Assembly: GCA_015039465.1 (NCBI GenBank) | Contig: MU130698.1 | Span: forward strand, 499,742-563,741 | DNA from: Phlegmacium glaucopus | Lineage: Eukaryota; Basidiomycota; Agaricomycetes; Agaricales; Cortinariaceae | Reading direction: 5' to 3' | DNA: 64,000 bases | Part shown: piece by piece, positions 1 through 50,209 of the stretch | How the letters are laid out: the number at the start of each line of letters is the position of its first letter | How positions within the stretch are numbered: the stretch's first letter is position 1 | Program-made: the position numbers and the translations under genes | The notes under the pieces: model-generated | Seen by the model: the letters and a program-made list of their open reading frames with translations, nothing else | Told to the model about the DNA's origin: nothing | Databases searched by the model: none

Positions 1-176
1 GTTTAGTGTCTTTATAAATATCGTGGGTTAAGGTTTTTTTCATGTGTTAATGTATTCTGTCTACGACTCTATAATTTCTATAATTTAATAAAATTATAGA
101 AATTATAGAGTCGTAGACAGAATACATTAACACATGAAAAAAACCTTAACCCACGATATTTATAAAGACACTAAAC
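1..176. repeat. 176-base palindrome (inverted repeat with almost no loop)
   Basis: Bases 1-87 are the reverse complement of 90-176 with about one mismatch, at the centre (87/90). The structure could fold into a hairpin of about 86 base pairs. It ends exactly at base 176, one base before the mirrored block begins at 177, so the two anomalies share a boundary. The left arm may continue beyond the window. It could be a true palindrome, such as a transposon end-to-end junction, or a fold-back sequencing or assembly artefact at a contig end. It has no coding content. Confidence 0.93.
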
Positions 177-2681
177 AATATAAAAAAAGTCTAAAAATTT
201 GGATCGGTTTCTACAAGTCCCGACCGGTCCCGTCGGGTCCCGTCGGTCTCGGTCGGTCCGGTTCCAATAAAAAAAGACTACATCAATCTAACCTACAAGA
301 ATAAAATGAGACCATTGTAGGCCAAAAGTGACCCAAATTTATTGTGGTTAGACCCAGGGTCTCCAAGTTTATGTTGTTCCCCCAAGGAAAGACCGCAATT
401 ATGTTCGGAGGGGTAGTAAAAGAGGCGGTATATCATTCATGATCCGTTGACTTACAGGTACCTTTCATCAGTCTTTAACTAATAGTGTTTTAGTTCTTTC
501 GCTGTTTACGACTGGGGAACTTTAACGAAATATTTCAAAGACCAGTAATAGGTTTCCCATAAAACTCCACAACCATAGTTAAAACTATCTATATAGAAGT
601 GGGATCTTATAAGCACTTCTTAGTCGTTCTGCATCTTGGAGCCCTCGTTCTCCCATTTACATACATTAAATGGACGTGACTAGGGGGGAACCCGTCCAAA
701 GCATTGCTCTCGCTGTAGTGCAGGTGGCTCGGAACTACTCTAGGCGAAGAATAGTAGAGTGCTCGCAACTCACACCTTTCGTCACTCAACCACATGTGAC
801 CCTTCAACTCAACCATTCGTTACTAACTATTCAGGCTAGATCTGCGAATCTCATGCATGCTGCTGGTTCCGTCTTCTTCTTACTCTACATTTACTTCCAC
901 AACGGACGTTGCTCTTAGAGGTTTTTTTCTTGATTCGGTTCGCTCAAGCTCCTACTTCCCTTTCATGTGTGGTTTTGGTATCTTCGGTCCCGTTTTTTTG
1001 ATGTACATCCACAGCATGTAAATTACTCGGATCATCTGTATATTTATCACTTATAAAGACGAGTGGACCACTAATTTGGCCATAATTGACTCTTATTCTA
1101 GACTTTTATCTAAAGCTCAATATTGTACTTCCGGCGATTCTTCTCTTGTCTTGTCCCTTGCTTTTATCTATGGTCAAACAACTACTCCCACAGACTAGAC
1201 TCATTTATGCTTCTAGTACTCGAAACCTCCAATACGTATCCTTTCTTCACTGAAGTGAAAGTCTTAGGTCAAGTGCTGTTCAAATTCTCCCACGTCTCCT
1301 ATCGACGCTAATCGTTTAGCCACTGTCGAGGCTCCTACAACTACCGGTACCTAAGCACGAACACTTCTATCATAGTTATACCTTTCAATACCGTATATCT
1401 ACTGGGTAATGGAACTGAAACCACTTCCTCCGATTTAGAGACTTTACTCACGACCTCCTTTTACAGTCGTTCTTAATTTCATCCCCTTCTTAAGATGACT
1501 GCGGAACCGTTACATTAGAAGTGCAATACTCAATTTGGTACTGACTTCGAGTTGTACTTTACGTTGCATGTCTGTCTTGACGGACACACCATTGATTCTA
1601 CTCATACTAGGTACCTTGTAAGTTTTTCTTCCGCCCGCATGGTTTTGACCGTTCGTGGTTATAGTAGAAAACAATCGTTGTCAGCGATGTAGTCTTCTGT
1701 TGTAACGTTCAGTTGATTACTACGGTGAGTGACTCGATGGCCGATTTATATATAAAGGCGACGAGTGATATCCTTCTACTTGTAGTTGCTAACTCTCAAA
1801 CCAGTATACTATGCTGTTACATGCAACGGTATACGCGTAACATTCCTTCGACACCTTCACAGTAGGGCTACAAGCCGCGTTTTACATTACGATTTACGTG
1901 GAAACATGATAGTTGTGGCAGTAAGGGACGTCTCTTTAGTTATTAAACAGAAGCAATAACTTACATCTAACAATGATTGTCACTTATACTGACTCTAGAC
2001 ATACCATCACTCGTTTGGTTCCTTTTTACCAGTGGTCTGTTTAGACATTGCTAACCGGAAAGAAAGTTACAATAAGGAATAAGAAGAGTGCATGTCAGTG
2101 AGAAATCAGTAAGTAAAGAAATGTGTCGAAGGTCTGGAACCATGACCTAGGCCGTGACAGGAAAGAGGAAATAAGATAGAGCCAACGTCAATGACAAGAT
2201 AAGAATAGAGTTGGATAGATTCTTGGAGCATATTTTTGGGTCAGCGATCTATCACAATGTCAAATCACTTAAGCTTTATGGAAATGGGGCAGAAAACTCA
2301 AGGAGGTACACAGCTTTGGTGAGAGGACAATAGATTGGTAGTGTCGTCAGTGCTAAAGCGGTGTTTTAGAGTGGAGATGTGAGGATGCAAGTCTTCTACC
2401 TTAGTTTTAAGATAAAACGAGGTTTCTATAGTGTCTTGAGAGTGGTCTATACATGGCCAACACGACGTAAAGGGGTCAAACACTATGACTTGCACATCTG
2501 ACATTAGCGGTGTAGTTAGTTACGGCGGGGTCCTCGCAACGCCAATCCCTCCATGTGTGGATCCACCCAATGGCGTTGAACTAACTACCATAGTTCATGG
2601 TATTCTTCCCACTGGATCTGTATTAAGTTATAGTATTATCTGTACCTAGCTCGGCGAATGACATTCGAACTATATGGTTCC
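177..2681. other. Mirror block: direct complement (not reverse complement) of 2682-5186
   Basis: Base n in this block is the Watson-Crick complement of base n+2505, read in the same direction. The pairing starts at 177/2682 and ends at 2681/5186. Across roughly half the block that I compared line by line I found no indels and five substitutions, at 1483, 2524, 2571, 2574 and 2587. Read backwards without complementing, the block spells the sense strand of the DUF6534 gene that lies on the minus strand of 2682-5186. Open frames inside it have no biological meaning; the longest is about 80 codons and none resembles a protein. The partner is the natural copy because its exons continue to the right beyond 5186. 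Confidence 0.95.
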
Positions 2682-3126
2682 TTATATTTTTTTCAGATTT
2701 TTAAACCTAGCCAAAGATGTTCAGGGCTGGCCAGGGCAGCCCAGGGCAGCCAGAGCCAGCCAGGCCAAGGTTATTTTTTTCTGATGTAGTTAGATTGGAT
2801 GTTCTTATTTTACTCTGGTAACATCCGGTTTTCACTGGGTTTAAATAACACCAATCTGGGTCCCAGAGGTTCAAATACAACAAGGGGGTTCCTTTCTGGC
2901 GTTAATACAAGCCTCCCCATCATTTTCTCCGCCATATAGTAAGTACTAGGCAACTGAATGTCCATGGAAAGTAGTCAGAAATTGATTATCACAAAATCAA
3001 GAAAGCGACAAATGCTGACCCCTTGAAATTGCTTTATAAAGTTTCTGGTCATTATCCAAAGGGTATTTTGAGGTGTTGGTATCAATTTTGATAGATATAT
3101 CTTCACCCTAGAATATTCGTGAAGAA

Positions 3127-5469
3127 TCAGCAAGACGTAGAACCTCGGGAGCAAGAGGGTAAATGTATGTAATTTACCTGCACTGATCCCCCCTTGGGCA
3201 GGTTTCGTAACGAGAGCGACATCACGTCCACCGAGCCTTGATGAGATCCGCTTCTTATCATCTCACGAGCGTTGAGTGTGGAAAGCAGTGAGTTGGTGTA
3301 CACTGGGAAGTTGAGTTGGTAAGCAATGATTGATAAGTCCGATCTAGACGCTTAGAGTACGTACGACGACCAAGGCAGAAGAAGAATGAGATGTAAATGA
3401 AGGTGTTGCCTGCAACGAGAATCTCCAAAAAAAGAACTAAGCCAAGCGAGTTCGAGGATGAAGGGAAAGTACACACCAAAACCATAGAAGCCAGGGCAAA
3501 AAAACTACATGTAGGTGTCGTACATTTAATGAGCCTAGTAGACATATAAATAGTGAATATTTCTGCTCACCTGGTGATTAAACCGGTATTAACTGAGAAT
3601 AAGATCTGAAAATAGATTTCGAGTTATAACATGAAGGCCGCTAAGAAGAGAACAGAACAGGGAACGAAAATAGATACCAGTTTGTTGATGAGGGTGTCTG
3701 ATCTGAGTAAATACGAAGATCATGAGCTTTGGAGGTTATGCATAGGAAAGAAGTGACTTCACTTTCAGAATCCAGTTCACGACAAGTTTAAGAGGGTGCA
3801 GAGGATAGCTGCGATTAGCAAATCGGTGACAGCTCCGAGGATGTTGATGGCCATGGATTCGTGCTTGTGAAGATAGTATCAATATGGAAAGTTATGGCAT
3901 ATAGATGACCCATTACCTTGACTTTGGTGAAGGAGGCTAAATCTCTGAAATGAGTGCTGGAGGAAAATGTCAGCAAGAATTAAAGTAAGGGAAGAATTCT
4001 ACTGACGCCTTGGCAATGTAATCTTCACGTTATGAGTTAAACCATGACTGAAGCTCAACATGAAATGCAACGTACAGACAGAACTGCCTGTGTGGTAACT
4101 AAGATGAGTATGATCCATGGAACATTCAAAAAGAAGGCGGGCGTACCAAAACTGGCAAGCACCAATATCATCTTTTGTTAGCAACAGTCGCTACATCAGA
4201 AGACAACATTGCAAGTCAACTAATGATGCCACTCACTGAGCTACCGGCTAAATATATATTTCCGCTGCTCACTATAGGAAGATGAACATCAACGATTGAG
4301 AGTTTGGTCATATGATACGACAATGTACGTTGCCATATGCGCATTGTAAGGAAGCTGTGGAAGTGTCATCCCGATGTTCGGCGCAAAATGTAATGCTAAA
4401 TGCACCTTTGTACTATCAACACCGTCATTCCCTGCAGAGAAATCAATAATTTGTCTTCGTTATTGAATGTAGATTGTTACTAACAGTGAATATGACTGAG
4501 ATCTGTATGGTAGTGAGCAAACCAAGGAAAAATGGTCACCAGACAAATCTGTAACGATTGGCCTTTCTTTCAATGTTATTCCTTATTCTTCTCACGTACA
4601 GTCACTCTTTAGTCATTCATTTCTTTACACAGCTTCCAGACCTTGGTACTGGATCCGGCACTGTCCTTTCTCCTTTATTCTATCTCGGTTGCAGTTACTG
4701 TTCTATTCTTATCTCAACCTATCTAAGAACCTCGTATAAAAACCCAGTCGCTAGATAGTGTTACAGTTTAGTGAATTCGAAATACCTTTACCCCGTCTTT
4801 TGAGTTCCTCCATGTGTCGAAACCACTCTCCTGTTATCTAACCATCACAGCAGTCACGATTTCGCCACAAAATCTCACCTCTACACTCCTACGTTCAGAA
4901 GATGGAATCAAAATTCTATTTTGCTCCAAAGATATCACAGAACTCTCACCAGATATGTACCGGTTGTGCTGCATTTCCCCAGTTTGTGATACTGAACGTG
5001 TAGACTGTAATCGCCACATCAATCAATGACGCCCCAGGAGCGTTGCGGTTAGGGAGGTACACACCTAGGTGGGTTCCCACAACTTGATTGACGGTATCAA
5101 GTACCATAAGAAGGGTGACCTAGACATAATTCAATATCATAATAGACATGGATCGAGCCGCTTACTGTAAGCTTGATATACCAAGGGTCATTCTGATTTG
5201 TAAAGTAATACAAAGTTTGAACGCAAGAGACTGGAAAGTGGGATGAGGTCGTATCCATGATTTGGCACAGCAATATATGTACCTCCATATAAGCTGCCAA
5301 AATCGATTAGAACCTCGCTGAAAACGAGCAGATGAAAAATGTACGCTGCTGCGACAACTACGCTGATGAAAACTGCACCATAGCTATAATAACCAATATC
5401 ATCAATCATCGATATATTTGCATTGTCAAGGACGAACAACACTAACGTGTTATCCAAATCTGGCAACAT
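3127..5469 (-). pseudogene. DUF6534-type multi-pass membrane protein gene, probably disabled
   Basis: I recognise the agaricomycete DUF6534 layout (predicted seven-helix membrane proteins of unknown function). The chosen start gives MLPDLDNTL at 5469. A membrane segment with FISVVVAAA follows, then VQTLYYFTNQNDPWYIKLT (about 5150-5220), then an exon reading VTLLMVLDTVNQVVGTHL (about 5045-5100) and one reading FSITNWGNAAQPVHIW (about 4948-4990). The C-terminal part includes AINILGAVTDLLIAAILC, ILFSVNTGL, NTFIYISFFFCLGR and a tail STLNAREMIRSGSHQG. Introns have GT-AG ends. An in-frame TGA at 3777-3779 sits where relatives have arginine (LNLS-stop-TGF). I could not thread about 1 kb in the middle (roughly 3.9-4.9 kb), more than such a gene normally needs, so insertion or decay is likely. 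Nearly all of the gene is duplicated as the mirror block to its left. Confidence 0.75.
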
Positions 5470-35094: not shown

Positions 35095-37619
35095 TTATTT
35101 TTGGTGATGAAGACGCTTGCGGGATACATGGAGATCGAGTAAGTACCGTAGAAGGAAAAAATCATGATGGCGAAGATAGGGATTGAGGAAAAAGCTTGTT
35201 GCATCGTCAAGAACTGTAGCTGATGTCCACGTATTGGGTACATTGCGACCAAATTTTGGAGCAAGGTGGCAGCTCCGTACTATCTTGGTCACAGGAATGA
35301 TAGACGCGCGTTGACGATGGTTGTGAGACGACCTTGAAATTGTGAACATGTTCGTGTCGAGATCAGGGGCCTTTCGGAGTGGCGTGTACCAATGGACGTA
35401 GGCAAGAGGATGGTTGTATTGGCCGAATTCAGCGGGCAATTTGAATATTACCCGCACCTGAGCAACACGGAGTCCTACAGAGGAGAGAGTAAGTACTAGT
35501 ACTAAGGAGTGAGGTTAGATGTTTAGATTTTAAGCGTACCACTTAAAGGACCACCCGCTGCAACGCTTGGGCTCTCTTGGACAAGCACCGTACTAAATCG
35601 ACTTGGAACAGCTTGTTTTATACCTTGCGAAGTGATCGCAGCTTTGACCGCTTTGACGGCATGGATAATATCTGGTGTCGATTTCGATGTGACTTCAGGG
35701 ATTGCGGGGAGGACAAATCTGACTTGCTTGTAGAGATCAAATGTAGATGTGGTAGTTGGCGCGGTGTTGCCAACCAGTGATGTGGTGCCAATGAACGAAG
35801 AAAGGTGTTGTAAGAAATCTACTGCTCCAAAATCATCAACAAGGGACCTTACTGAAACGCTGTGCAGAGCGGGTTTCTTTGCAATGGCATAACATTCCTT
35901 CATTTCATCTTCTGCAGTTAATTCCTCTTCGTCATCCTCTTCGTCATCATCATCGTCATCTTCGCCTTGATCCGCCCCATCCTCATCACCGTCCTTCAAT
36001 ATGTGAGCAGTATAGCCTGGAACAGCCCATTGAAGGTACAGACAGAAGCGCTGGATGGACTCCTGGCGGCGGAGCCAGATCGTCATTTGCTTGATGAATT
36101 CTTTCTTATTGGTTGCCTTGTACCCCATTTTCGCAAGATCAATGTGCAGGCGCTCGGTGCCTTCTGTGTTGAATCCGTCAGCGGTTCCATGTGATCGGAT
36201 CGCGTCGATGTAGTGTTTGATATTGTGAAGTTTACTGATATTAAAGTGTTTTCGTATGTCGAGGTCGTTGAAGATGTATTTGTTGTCATGGAAAGTGAGC
36301 CAGGCTGCATCGAGGAGACCCAGAGATTCATCGGTGTGGGTCTCAAAGTGAGCATAGTAGATGAAATCCAAGACACTGCGAACAGCGCGGATGACGGCCG
36401 GGTCTGTGGCATCCGCAAGGACTGCGAGAAAGACCTTTTCCATATTTTTATGCTCAGTTCCAGTCCACTGTGTCGTTAATGAAATACCTTTCTTGAAATG
36501 TCGGAGGCTTGGATGAGGTGACATGGACTGAAACCGCCGGTCAACTTCACCCACACCACCTTCAGTCGCTTCCGTTGCCCAACTTGAGATGTGGTCCTTG
36601 AAAATGCCCTTATGGAGTTGATGGAGGATGTCGGGTGTCATGCTGGTGAATATATTGCAGTGGGGGAGATCTTCCCAGAAGGGGTTGACTGCTCGAAGGC
36701 TGTGTTTGTCAAACTCTGGTGGGTTTTCGCCGTTGGCTTCTTCACCAAGGACTCGGATTGTTGTTTCAGGATCCCGCAACTCAGAGAAAAGTCGAGCGCC
36801 ACGTTCTTTGGGATCTACGATACATCTTGGACAGGCGCTTTCTTTGCAACAGGCGACGAGACATTGTTCTGGATAATCAGCGATGTAAGCAGCCAAGATT
36901 GGATAGACGGTCCGGATGAAACCATCAGCGCATTGCATGTCAACGCCGTTTTTCCCAGCATCAACCAATGGCTTTAGAAGGGTACGCATGCATTCGTGAA
37001 ACAGTTGATAGCCCTCGATAGAACGCCTTTTCTTCGAGAAGCATTCAAGCTTAGAGACAGGTAAGTAACCAATAAGGACCATAGCTCGCGCAGATGGCTG
37101 ACGACGGGTTTCTTTCTCGATGTTGCCAATGCTCATGTACACAGGCCATGCTTGCTTATCGCCAGCGTAGCGTGTGAGCTGCGTCTTGTCAGAAGAGACA
37201 ATAACAGGAGCAATTGTGACACCATCGGGTAACTCCGTCTAAGAAGGCAGTGTGAGTTCGTTTCTCACCTCACATACTGATTGACCATTACAAACCTGCA
37301 TAGACCACCACCAATCGCCTGTCCACATCTCGCTATACTCACGATTTGTCCCATCTTTATTTCTGTAAACTCTCTTTGGTGCGTAAAATTGTTTTCCTTT
37401 GAATGCTGGGTTTGCCATTAACTCCTTGATGCATTCGACAGGATCCCTATGCCAGAGCTCTGCATCCTCCGTCTTTAGATCGCCGTTTGTACCCATAATA
37501 TCACCTTGGATCCGAAATGGCGTGCATGACTCAGACTCTCTGCCTCCATCGAAGAAACACAAGAATTCCACAGCAGTCCCTGAGCCTGAGGTGCGTCTCC
37601 CACGTAAACAGACAGCCAC
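35095..37619 (-). CDS. Plavaka transposase (CMC superfamily), N-terminally shortened
   Basis: Exons 37296-37619, 35540-37238 and 35095-35474 join in frame to about 800 codons without a stop. The text matches Plavaka transposases: AELWHRDPVECIKELMANPA, EMWTGDWWWSMQ, IAPVIVSSDKTQLTRYAGDK, SARAMVLIGYLPVSKLECFS, ADYPEQCLVACC then CPRC, MTPDILHQLHKGIFKDH and HGTADGFNTEGTERLHIDL. An acidic stretch (D/E-rich, near 35930-35975) precedes the C-terminal domain. Family members have some 250 further residues before CTPFRIQGDIMG; here similarity stops near 37520, where the opposite strand begins to encode the DUF6532 gene. The first 35 or so residues given are therefore probably not native. It could still be expressed from a chance start. 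Confidence 0.8.
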
Positions 37620-44481: not shown

Positions 44482-47400
44482 GTGATACAGAGTCAAATTC
44501 GCGATGAGATCGTAGAAGAGATCCGGGGAGGGGTCCAAAAGTATGGTCGGAACCCAAGGCCTAATCTGGTTATTCAACAAGTCCCAACCGCCGAAGTACA
44601 GCGCGATGTAGGAATAGACGGTGATGATGGTTGGCCACTGGGAGAGGACGTTAGCATGCTAGAACTATGTCAAGGCCGTTTTATGAACGCGCCTTCCAAA
44701 GAAGTGATTGACAGCGCGAGGTCGCAATTTATCGATCGAACCAGCAACTCAGCAGTGGCTATTGGCATCTGTGTGACATGTGCCCAGGAGACACCCGTCA
44801 AGGACTTAACACGGTATCCCATTGAACATATACCTAATCCACATCGATTGAGGCCTGCAGCACGCCATCCACAACACGATCTCTATCGCAGAATGTTACT
44901 CCATCCGCAGGGAATGATCAATGAAACGTCTGGACGTCTATGTGATGATTGTGTTAGGGCGCTTAAGGCCGATAAACTTCCGATGCTAGCACTCGCCAAT
45001 AATCTTTGGATTGGACAAATTCCACACGAACTAGCATTCTTGACTCTTCCGGAGCGAATTCTTATAGCTAAATATTTGCCTGTCGCATATGTCATCAAAC
45101 TGTATCCAAAAAAAAGGGGGGCACGCAACTGGGACAAACGGCAGATGCACAGTGGTCTCAAAGGCAACATTTCCACCTATCGATTAGATCAATCGCAGAT
45201 CGTATCTATGATTGACGGCTCACTAATGCCGGCGCTAGCCAAAGTTCTTGCCGCCACAATAGGCATAACTTTTGTTGGTCCCAAAAACCTTCCAGAGAAA
45301 AGCATGCCAAGTTTGTTTCGTGTCAGGAGATTGCGGGTCAAAAAAGCTTTGGAGTGGCTAAAAGAAAACAATCAATTATACAAGGATATAACGATATCTC
45401 CTCTGCATCTTGCTGAGTTGCCAGAAGATGGAGTTCCATATGAATTGTTGGCAACCGCTAGACATTCGACAGATATTAGCATGCTATATGCAGAACAGGA
45501 TGGATATGTTCCTCCTCAGGGGGACAAAGCAATTGAGGACGAACAAGGTATGTTTGGTGACTCATAGTAGCCAACGAGCGATTAATTCTCCGGCTTTCCT
45601 TCACCCACAGAAGTGAATGGAGATTCGAACATTGAAGAAGATATAAGTGGGCGTCCCTGGCTCTGCATTAAAATATTGAGATCAACTTACAATTCGAATT
45701 TAGACATGGATGATGCTCATGATGTGGACGAAGAGCCGGCCGTTGTGCCTCTTGCACATCTGGGTGTGGTCGACGTCGATGGAGTTGAAGTTACAGAGTC
45801 CGAATTGATGGCACATGTGTTAGCAAATTGTTGTGAGTCTAGGGTGGAGGAGGATTATATGATACGAAGGGGAAGTGCGTTTGTCAATGAATATGCCAGG
45901 ATAGACCCAGCAACGGGGCAGCGGAACGATGGGGGCCCTAGTGACGCCAACCACCTTTTGGGCTGTTTCCCCACACTCTTTCCATATAGGCAAGGAGGTT
46001 TCGAGGTCAGTCGTGAGGTGAACGTGCCGTACGAGGTTCATGCTCGATGGGCGTTGCGCTATGAAGATAGACGTTTCCGAAAAGACCCCCATTTTCCATT
46101 CCAAGTCTTCGGTGTGTGCCAGAAGAGGCAGGTCTGTCGAGCATCGTGCCTTCAAATGAAGAAGGATTTCTACTTTCAAAATCAGAATGTTCTATCTTCT
46201 ATAACTGCAGACGATCTCACCAAAGCCAGTCAGGAGGAGACCCGCGGGGTGCCCTTTTCAAATCCGGCCGTTCAAATGTTCCGTAGCCTTCTGAGCACTG
46301 TCAAAACCAAAGTTCAAGGATCAGACGAATCTCGGAGGTCGATCAGGGGTAAAATTTGGGGAACAAACATACTTCACAACCCTCCAAGCCTTTGGGTGAC
46401 GATCAATCCTTCAGATATGCAAGATCCTATTGCTGGGGTCGATATCGACTTGGATGCGTTCTGTAATACGGCAGGCCCAGATAGTGCGAACAGGGGTCTC
46501 AACATAGCGTCGGATCCTTATGCCTCAGCGAATTTTTTTCATTTTATCATCGGGACGATTCTTGAGGTGTTGATCGGGATCACCAAACAACGAAATGGGA
46601 CGATCAGAAGAAAAGAAGGGATATTTGGTGTTGTGAAGAGTTACATAGGTACTGTGGAGGCACAAGGCAGAGGCTCGCTGCACTTGCATTTGCTATTATG
46701 GCTGGACGGCGCGCCAACTGCGCAAGATCTGAAACGAGCTTTGAAAGACAGCGCGTTCCGTGAAAAAGTAAAGCACTTCATTAAAACAACAATACGAGCC
46801 GATATCGATGGAATGATTGCGGCTGACGTCGTCGCAATGCCTAAATTAGACGCTGTCTCTTACTCACGGCCTCTGGATCCACGAAAATCTGAGGATGCTA
46901 AGCTGATGAAGACTACGGAATTGGAGATCGCACGTACAACACAACTTCACAGCTGTTCCATGGCCAATTGTTTGAAGATTGTGAAAGGTCAAATCCAGTG
47001 CAAGCGTCGAGCACCATTCGCATTGGCATCGGATGACTGGGTCAATAGTGGGGGTGCTTGGGGCCCTAAGCGACTGTGTGGCTTCTTAAACAATTGGAAT
47101 CCTCCTTTGTTGATGTCTATCCGAGCAAATCATGACGTAAAACTCTTCATGAACGGGAGGGACACCGGTGTATTAACTTGGTACATTACCAATTATGCAA
47201 GCAAAAAGCAACAACGCTCTTCCAATGTGTCGGCCTTGCTAGCGAAACGGGTAGCATTTCATAAAGACGAGGAAAAGGCACGACGGGACCTGACAGACGT
47301 CAGCAGACGCTTGATTCAACGATGTGTTAACACACTAACGCGCGAGAGGGAGTTCAGTGCTCCAGAAGTCATAAGCTACCTGATGGGATGGGGGGATCGC

Positions 47401-50209
47401 TTTGAGTTGCATCATCACGTCTCAATTTATACTGATGCAATCATATTGGCGCTAAAGAAAAAATATCCTGGCCTGAGGGAAAAGAGGTAACATTGTGGAA
47501 ATCATTTTTATATCTGATACTAACATATTGATGATGGCCAGAGGCGAAGATACATCTGAAGAAGGTCTGCGGGCTCGCAATCATGTAATCACGATGGATT
47601 CTGGAGTGATCACGTTGAAAGATCAGCTACATGAGTACATGTTCCGCGGGGAGGAGCTGATTGAAATGAGTCTTTTTACCTTCGTTCTTGACACATATGA
47701 TGGAAAGGCCAACAGGGAGGACGACGCAGACGATGAATCAAGACCAATTGGAAGGCCTCCAAATAGACGGGTTCGGTATCGACAGGGCTTTAACAAGACT
47801 GGTCGCTGCCAAATTTTCTGGACAGAAGGGCATGAAACCCTACCACAGTTTGTCGGTAGCTGGATGCCACGAAGTGATAGACCAAGCGACAGGGAACTTT
47901 ATTGTGCGGCCATGCTTGCTCTCTTGAGGCCTTGGAAGGATCTCTGCGATCTGAAGACGGAGTTAGAGACATTTGAAGAGAGCTTTGAAAGGTTCTTACA
48001 AGGCGCAGGCAAAAGGATCCAAGCCATCATCGAGAATATCCAGTATTACTATGAATGTTATGATGCTGCAAAAAATCGGCAGCAAGAGATGCACCTCGAC
48101 AGTAATGAAAGAACTATTGACTTCGAGGAAGACGCCTGTCCAGAGGACCTAACAACAAACTCGCTAGTTTTTGATTCTCAACGGCACGAGACGACCGAGG
48201 AGGAAATTGAGCTTGCGTACGACTCTAGGGGTGCAACAAGAGAACGGCTCTATGCAGAGCTTACAATGTACACAGCGATTGACTGTGGAATTTTTTCGGA
48301 GACAAGACCGCTGACAGCGTATCTGCCGGGCACAGCGATAGCAGATGAGAGTGAGATTGCGACATTTCGAGCATGGGAGGAGCAATTGAAGAATGCGACT
48401 AGAACGGGGGTTGACGATGCCGGGCCAAGTTTGTTTTCGGACAGCGATTTCAGTGTCCCCATGGTTAGGTCTGTAGATGAAGCAGGTGTCGAAAAATCGC
48501 GAGATGGTGGCAGATGTGCGACGGGTCAATGCGAAATTTCCAAAACTAATGAAAGTTCACGACCCAAAAGAAGCATGTTGAATGAGGGACCAAAGACGTG
48601 CACATGACATTATCGAAAAACAGCTTGTAAAACGATTAGCGGGTAGGCTCCATGGCAATGTAAGCACAACATAGATATACTCACATCAACGACAGGACAG
48701 GACACGCCCCAGCTCCGGATGCTTGTCTTGGGTCATGGTGGTACCGGAAAATCAATGTTGATAGGAGCAATAAGCGAAACGTTTCAGGCCTTAAGCTCTC
48801 TTGACAAACTCGCTAAATGTGGAACATCAGGAGTATCGGCGGTCATAATTGGCGGCCAAACATACCATTCGTGGGCAGGGATACCCGTCAACAAGCCAGG
48901 CAAGGACAATTGGGTGGAGAAGGCCAACCAGGATATTCAGAAGCGAAGAAAACGAAACATTGCAGGTCGTCAGTTCTTGATAACGGACGAAATTTCTATG
49001 TGCACAAAACAATTGAAGTACAGAGGATCGGAGATTGTGTCAAGAGTAAGAGCGTCAGAAGGAGTTGGCAAAGGCTCGGAATGTTTTGGAGGGATGCACG
49101 TTGTGGATTTCGGGGATTTTCACCAGTTCCCGCCTGTGCGCAATCCGAATGCAGCATTGTACTGTGATCGGCCTAAAACCGATGATGCACATGCGCTAAA
49201 GGGAAGATCGATTTTTTTAGAGTATGACAAGGTGGTGATCTTACGGAAACAGATGAGAGTTGTGGATGATGTGTGGACTGGGATATTGAGCAGACTGCGG
49301 GTTGGGGAGTGTAGCGCGGAGGATATCCAAGAAGTTCAAAAATTGGTTTTGACGAATATTGAATGCGAGATGCCCGACTTCTCCAAGGCGCCATGGTGCG
49401 ACGCGACACTCATTACACCTCAGAACGCCGCGAAAGATATGTGGAACGCCGCTGCGCTGGATAGACACTGCCGATCATCTGGAAACAGGAAATACATCGT
49501 AATGGCAGAAGACACCGTCAGCGACTCCGGAGAGAAACCAAACAGGGCGACGAGGCTAGCGGTAGCAAGCCTGAAGGATGATGCAACCAAAAATTTGAAG
49601 AGACGAGTAGAGTTGGCAGTGGGTATGAAGGCGATGGTGATCTTGAACATTGCAACAGATGCTGAGCTTGCAAATGGAACACGGGGCACAGTGGAAGGGA
49701 TTGTGTTGGATCCAAGGGAAAGAAACACAGTTCCTGACGAAGAGGGCAATATCCGACTCCTTTTTCCTCCTTCTGTAATCTATTTCAGGCCGGATCTACC
49801 GTCAAGGATGACCTTTGATGGAGTCGCGCCTGGTATCATTCCAATTTCACCCACACTCCTCAAGTTTAACGTCGAGGTGGACAGACAGAAAGTGAAGATC
49901 GAAAGGAGACAGATAGCGATAGTTCCTGGGTATGCCTTTACGGACTACAAGTCGCAAGGCCAGACGTTGGAATACGTAATCGTTGACATTGCTAAACCTC
50001 CATCGGGGAGCCTGTCGCCATTTAGCGTGTACGTCACTCTTTCCAGAAGCAGGGGCCGGAAAATGATTCGAATTTTGAGAGAATTTGATCCAGGATTATT
50101 CATGCATCATCCTTCCGAAGATTTGAGACGGGAAATGACAAGACTGGAGGAGCTGGATAGGAGTACGAAGCTGGAACACGGAGTAACAAATAGGACTACC
50201 CAGGTTTAG
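44482..50209 (+). pseudogene. Helitron Rep-helicase gene, one-base frameshift
   Basis: Exons 44482-45547, 45611-47486, 47542-48642 and 48696-50209 encode a Helitron replicase-helicase of 1851 residues once one extra base in GGG at 48586-48588 is discounted; with it the frame stops at 48607. The N-terminal 350 residues match DUF6570, with C96-x2-C99 and C154-x2-C157. The Rep part follows: the HUH motif is HLHLLLW (about residue 713) and the paired tyrosines are YITNY (residues 880 and 884), expected to nick one strand for rolling-circle transposition. The PIF1-like helicase has Walker A GHGGTGKS (about 1360), Walker B DEIS (about 1445), GDFHQFPPV, and YVTLSRSRG near the end. All key motifs are kept, so the break looks recent, or it may be a sequencing error. 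Helitron ends were not located. Confidence 0.85.

Follow-up and report, generated by a model that had tools for sequence, protein, structure and literature searches.

Reversed-order sequence at the edges of assembly gaps in the public genome of Phlegmacium glaucopus

Two adjacent blocks of the Phlegmacium glaucopus genome that are related by complement without reversal are a systematic text-order error in the public assembly and represent no genuine feature of the DNA itself. The blocks stand at the start of the window, by which we mean the whole 64,000-nucleotide stretch of DNA that was analysed (C240:499742-563741 in a 60.5-Mb assembly of 259 contigs). Judging from sequence comparisons within the assembly, positions 1-2681 are almost certainly text in reversed base order at a gap edge, likely derived from a gap-filling extension that was written back to front. 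The species belongs to the Cortinariaceae, and we take it to be the Cortinarius glaucopus of published papers.

Results

A parallel-complement block at the start of the window

Positions 177-2681 are the unreversed complement of 2682-5186, with 2500 of 2505 bases identical (99.80%) in a gap-free alignment. The same pair had 0% identity when compared directly, 24% when one block was only reversed, and 26% as reverse complement. Shifting the register of the complement by one to three bases lowered identity to 26-27%. The original prediction of two 2505-base blocks in parallel complement with zero net indel was therefore exact. It had also counted five substitutions, with four of them clustered at 2524-2587, and both statements held over the full 2505 bases, the differing positions being 1483, 2524, 2571, 2574, and 2587. 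Positions 1-176 join 177-2681 as one reversed stretch, such that the reversed text spans 1-2681 and the artefact junction falls at 2681/2682. As shown in Table 1, the junction separates reversed text from a natural MITE arm and its flank.

Table 1. Features at the start of the window, with positions numbered from its first base.
Feature	Position	Strand	Basis
Reversed-order MITE centre, first bases after the 2134-N gap	1-176		Complement matches natural MITE copies
Reversed-order MITE arm, complement of 2682-2788	177-283		Block and MITE alignments
Reversed-order fold-back copy of flank 2789-5186	284-2681		2500/2505 over 177-2681; pentamer score
Natural right arm of palindromic MITE, true contig start	2682-2788	+	98-100% to natural copies; TA at 2788
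Natural flank belonging to a repeated locus with paralogues at 76-93%	2789-5186		Genome matches
Separate nested repeat of ~320 bp within the natural flank	about 4550-4869		Genome matches

When compared with the genome, 177-2681 matched itself and otherwise gave short matches only, all of them in reversed text where inspected (C223 was left out). We also scored base order by pentamer composition, using a score trained on natural sequence that included the window's natural part, with each test block from 5001 on removed. Among the 64 one-kb blocks of the window, only 1-1000 and 1001-2000 scored as reversed, and the mixed block 2001-3000 scored just below zero. Independently of any alignment, pentamer composition supports the reversed order of 1-2000.

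Paralogues of 2789-5186 in ordinary text were found at 76-93% identity on C240 itself and on C23. Those along C240 lie at 411-425 kb, 478-487 kb, and 671-673 kb, and occur in both orientations. Farther into the window, an open frame at 35523-37142 (-) matches a Plavaka transposase (PF18759), and open frames within 45613-50209 (+) match Helitron_like_N and a PIF1-like helicase.

Recurrence of reversed blocks near gaps

The same fault is present at other gaps of the assembly. A genome search with the reversed block returned seven further places, five with the MITE (C171, C138, C105, C6, and C120) and two with another repeat (C141 and C223). A gap accompanied the reversed MITE on all five other scaffolds: the reversed text runs up to the Ns at C171, C105, C6, and C120, and at C138 the gap stands farther along (C138:310210). 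At C141, the gap is 90 bases from the matched repeat. For the complemented MITE flanks of C171, C105, and C120, the best match to natural text at another genomic place was 95-99% identical, and for that of C138 it was 92% identical. The complemented flank of C6 had no natural match among the 40 scored of 513 candidates. At C171, C105, and C120, unrelated repeats lie side by side and are reversed together as whole blocks. The reversed blocks that were measured range from 444 bases (C120) to 4443 bases (C171). A biological "reversed MITE" that had transposed to several sites was considered and rejected, as the flanks are reversed too and differ between places.

As a second probe, we used a high-copy repeat in the C171 flank that is unrelated to the MITE. 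This repeat was reversed at 22 candidate places, including the probe's own (25 matches), and in normal orientation at 303 candidate places, of which 40 were scored. A gap lay within 1.5 kb of 14 of the 20 fetched reversed loci versus none of 27 natural repeat loci, the latter (L010-L016 and L037-L056) representing several repeats and including three that end early at contig ends. With overlapping loci merged into distinct places, the counts were 13 of 18 reversed versus 0 of 25 natural (Fisher p = 2e-7). Confining the comparison to the same repeat left 13 of 18 reversed versus 0 of 5 natural (p = 0.007). Natural MITE loci with 500-base flanks were counted separately, and one of 14 adjoins a gap (L034, on C224). 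No gap was found within 1.5 kb at 6 of the 20 reversed loci; when one of these six (C193) was extended, a gap started approximately 140 bases beyond the fetched stretch. The reversed repeat of C105, used as a genome query, matched only itself. Positions 1501-2416 of L070 (C148) are reversed text with no N run within 1.5 kb, perhaps representing a gap that was counted as closed.

Reversal in place restores contig continuity at most junctions

If a block was written backwards, then for any element split across the contig/block border, the piece at the block's gap end should continue the natural piece. We applied this test to 14 junctions with both pieces in view, leaving out L065 and L072, whose natural pieces were matched only beside the repeat. 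The two pieces had adjacent element positions at eight junctions (L059, L060, L063, L067, C105, C171, C120, and the window) and came within four bases at another four (L068, C6, L070, and L074). At the L062 junction ten positions were unaligned, and the left junction of L073 was the one of the 14 that gave no fit. In the window, reversal places MITE position 284 immediately before position 285. The boundary at C171 had been predicted beforehand at 48 ± 1 natural arm bases, and the natural piece indeed ends at 48 with the block resuming at 49.

Reversing the blocks in place restores the continuity of the contigs in register at most junctions tested, which implies that the bases of contig-end extensions were entered back to front. 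Given this in-register continuity, which mere complementing of a copy would not predict, and the recurrence across the assembly, the operation is better described as a reversal of base order. The original prediction had attributed the block to a software or curation fault in which one segment was complemented but not reversed. A fault of that general kind is strongly supported by gap adjacency, recurrence, and junction register, but the one-off complementing has to be replaced by reversed-order extension of contig ends, recurring at many gaps.

The pentamer score at C171 was positive from about 100 bases past the left boundary. Among 500-base pieces, one piece of L069 that lies inside reversed text scored as natural. 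Positions 995-1500 of L069 (C13) are an inverted-repeat insert within reversed text, and the repeat positions flanking it overlap by approximately nine bases. At L073 (C148), 239-2296 is reversed text, and the 380 bases between it and the gap match only the overlapping L074 among the loci compared.

The palindromic MITE, the gap, and an empty site

The element at the junction is a palindromic MITE of ~391 bp with TA at both ends, and its natural copies are spread over many contigs as a high-copy family. Without gaps, the inner part of the MITE pairs with itself over 352-358 of 358-361 bases in 8 of 11 copies, reaching 358/358 in L029. Self-pairing was lower in L022 (312/391), L023 (340/390), and L033 (230/361), which may reflect a register shift from an indel. 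The complement of window 1-283 matched the natural copies L022-L033 at 93-100%, with L023 aligning from position 25 only and L024 in pieces. Natural copies matched 2682-2788 at 98-100%, mostly at 100%. A reversed copy identical to window 1-176 is present at C171.

Immediately before the window are 2134 Ns at C240:497608-499741 (L021 5867-8000), and window base 1, where the block adjoins the N run, is the next base (L021 8001). To the left of the gap, the last 108 bases of the contig equal window 2682-2789 in reverse complement. This left edge is in natural order, as is the L034 locus beside its own gap, which counts against a uniform reversal of gap edges. The natural left flank of 2682, for which the earlier analysis had proposed a search, was located across the gap, at C240:497607 and leftwards. 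In the paralogue L036, which represents the empty site, the left flank from beyond the gap is contiguous with window 2787 onwards, with one TA and no MITE. The empty site has a single TA and the insert a TA at each end, which amounts to the target duplication of a TA-inserting MITE. Judging from the empty site, the gap likely interrupts a single MITE insertion and hides no more than its centre. On this sequence evidence, the missing sequence between C240:497607 and window 2682 is likely only the ~176-bp MITE centre.

How the block may have arisen

A gap-extension origin of the block is well supported. The true contig would have started with base 2682, within the MITE's right arm, and an extension running leftwards from this base would have crossed the palindrome. 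A palindrome reads alike from both sides and would offer two equally good continuations, so the extension likely turned back and retraced 2505 bases of the contig itself instead of entering the left flank. When prefixed to the contig, the extension string was likely complemented without reversal or, equivalently, reversed. Extensions built from raw PacBio reads are expected to carry indels. The block carries none relative to 2682-5186, which is unusual for a raw PacBio consensus and counts against such an origin.

Extensions elsewhere bear on whether the folded-back content is itself correct. At C105, the reversed extension crosses the MITE and enters a right flank, and the left and right flanks together match one natural place (L037). 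At C171, the reversed extension has no match to its own left flank. These comparisons indicate extension without fold-back at both places, so the content of an extension can be right. This would favour a true 2505-bp inverted duplication around the MITE, in which software spoiled the base order only and the fold-back content is real. Such a duplication would agree with the inverted repeat obtained by reversing the block, which has a central MITE in register (284 then 285). It is nevertheless unlikely, as a matching MITE arm ends the left side of the gap and the flanks adjoin without a MITE in L036. A simple MITE insertion explains both gap sides, and no inverted copy is needed. Because L036 makes one MITE insertion spanning the gap likely, the fold-back in the window is likely wrong in content as well as in order.

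The five differing bases speak to the source of the block. All five are the bases of the paralogue at C240:484.7-486.8 kb, and four of them lie near the block's end, in its final 160 bases. In the aligned part around 1483, contig and paralogue differ at 94 positions, and the block agrees with the contig at the other 93; with neighbours so unlike the paralogue, a paralogue-derived tract there would be very short. The five bases would fit paralogue-derived reads or, equally, an ancestral allele carried by the second nucleus, and the proposed origin of the block from the other haplotype was accordingly not established. A single local curation slip, complementing this one segment taken from the other haplotype, could account for the five substitutions, and the specimen may be dikaryotic. 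We regard it as very improbable because the same fault occurs at many gaps and all five bases are those of the paralogue.

Finally, a molecule that truly carries parallel-complementary blocks from some unknown copying process would require no more than the deposited sequence to be taken at face value, but we know of no polymerase or ligase step that makes such copies, and in vivo parallel-complement copying was rejected as extremely improbable given that the blocks lie near assembly gaps and that reading them backwards restores split elements.

Discussion

The extension of contig ends written in reversed order points to gap patching, and ALLPATHS-LG followed by PBJelly is the likely route of the fault. 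Two sources make PBJelly a candidate for the tool. Its description, in the relevant passages of PMC3504050, has it extending contig flanks into gaps that cannot be closed and leaving the remaining Ns. The methods text of a paper including this species, which is called ectomycorrhizal in a passage of PMC8480192 under the name Cortinarius glaucopus, names PBJelly for hybrid assemblies (PMC7550596), which would apply here if this genome was one of them. A literature search on reversed sequence, PBJelly faults, and the assembly of this species found no report of this fault among the papers listed, as judged by titles and the openings of abstracts.

The interest of these results is technical and not biological: a public reference genome carries many reversed-order blocks near its gaps. 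Such blocks escape ordinary searches because their natural relatives align on neither strand. They can give rise to phantom genes, inflate the amount of orphan sequence, and lower repeat counts. They can be detected with complemented queries or by a forward-versus-reversed k-mer score, and both approaches are applicable to other patched assemblies. It is possible, though we put it forward only tentatively, that the fault is general to gap patching, with kilobase extensions of contig ends reversed in many public patched assemblies and the genes or repeats within them counted as missing or orphan. If so, reversed blocks would be missed by homology searches in any frame or on any strand.

The MITE resembles Tc1/mariner-like elements with TA targets and long inverted repeats in being palindromic, having TA ends, and leaving a single TA in the empty site; it differs in being palindromic over nearly its whole length. 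The blocks share with PBJelly flank extension the growth of contig ends into a gap with Ns left behind, whereas reversed extension is not described in the passages of PMC3504050 on that process. The window also recalls the palindromic long reads that fold back at a missed adapter, mentioned in the same source (PMC3504050), in that sequence returns on the opposite strand. Here, in contrast, the sequence turns back in the middle of a naturally occurring palindromic MITE, and its base order is reversed as well.
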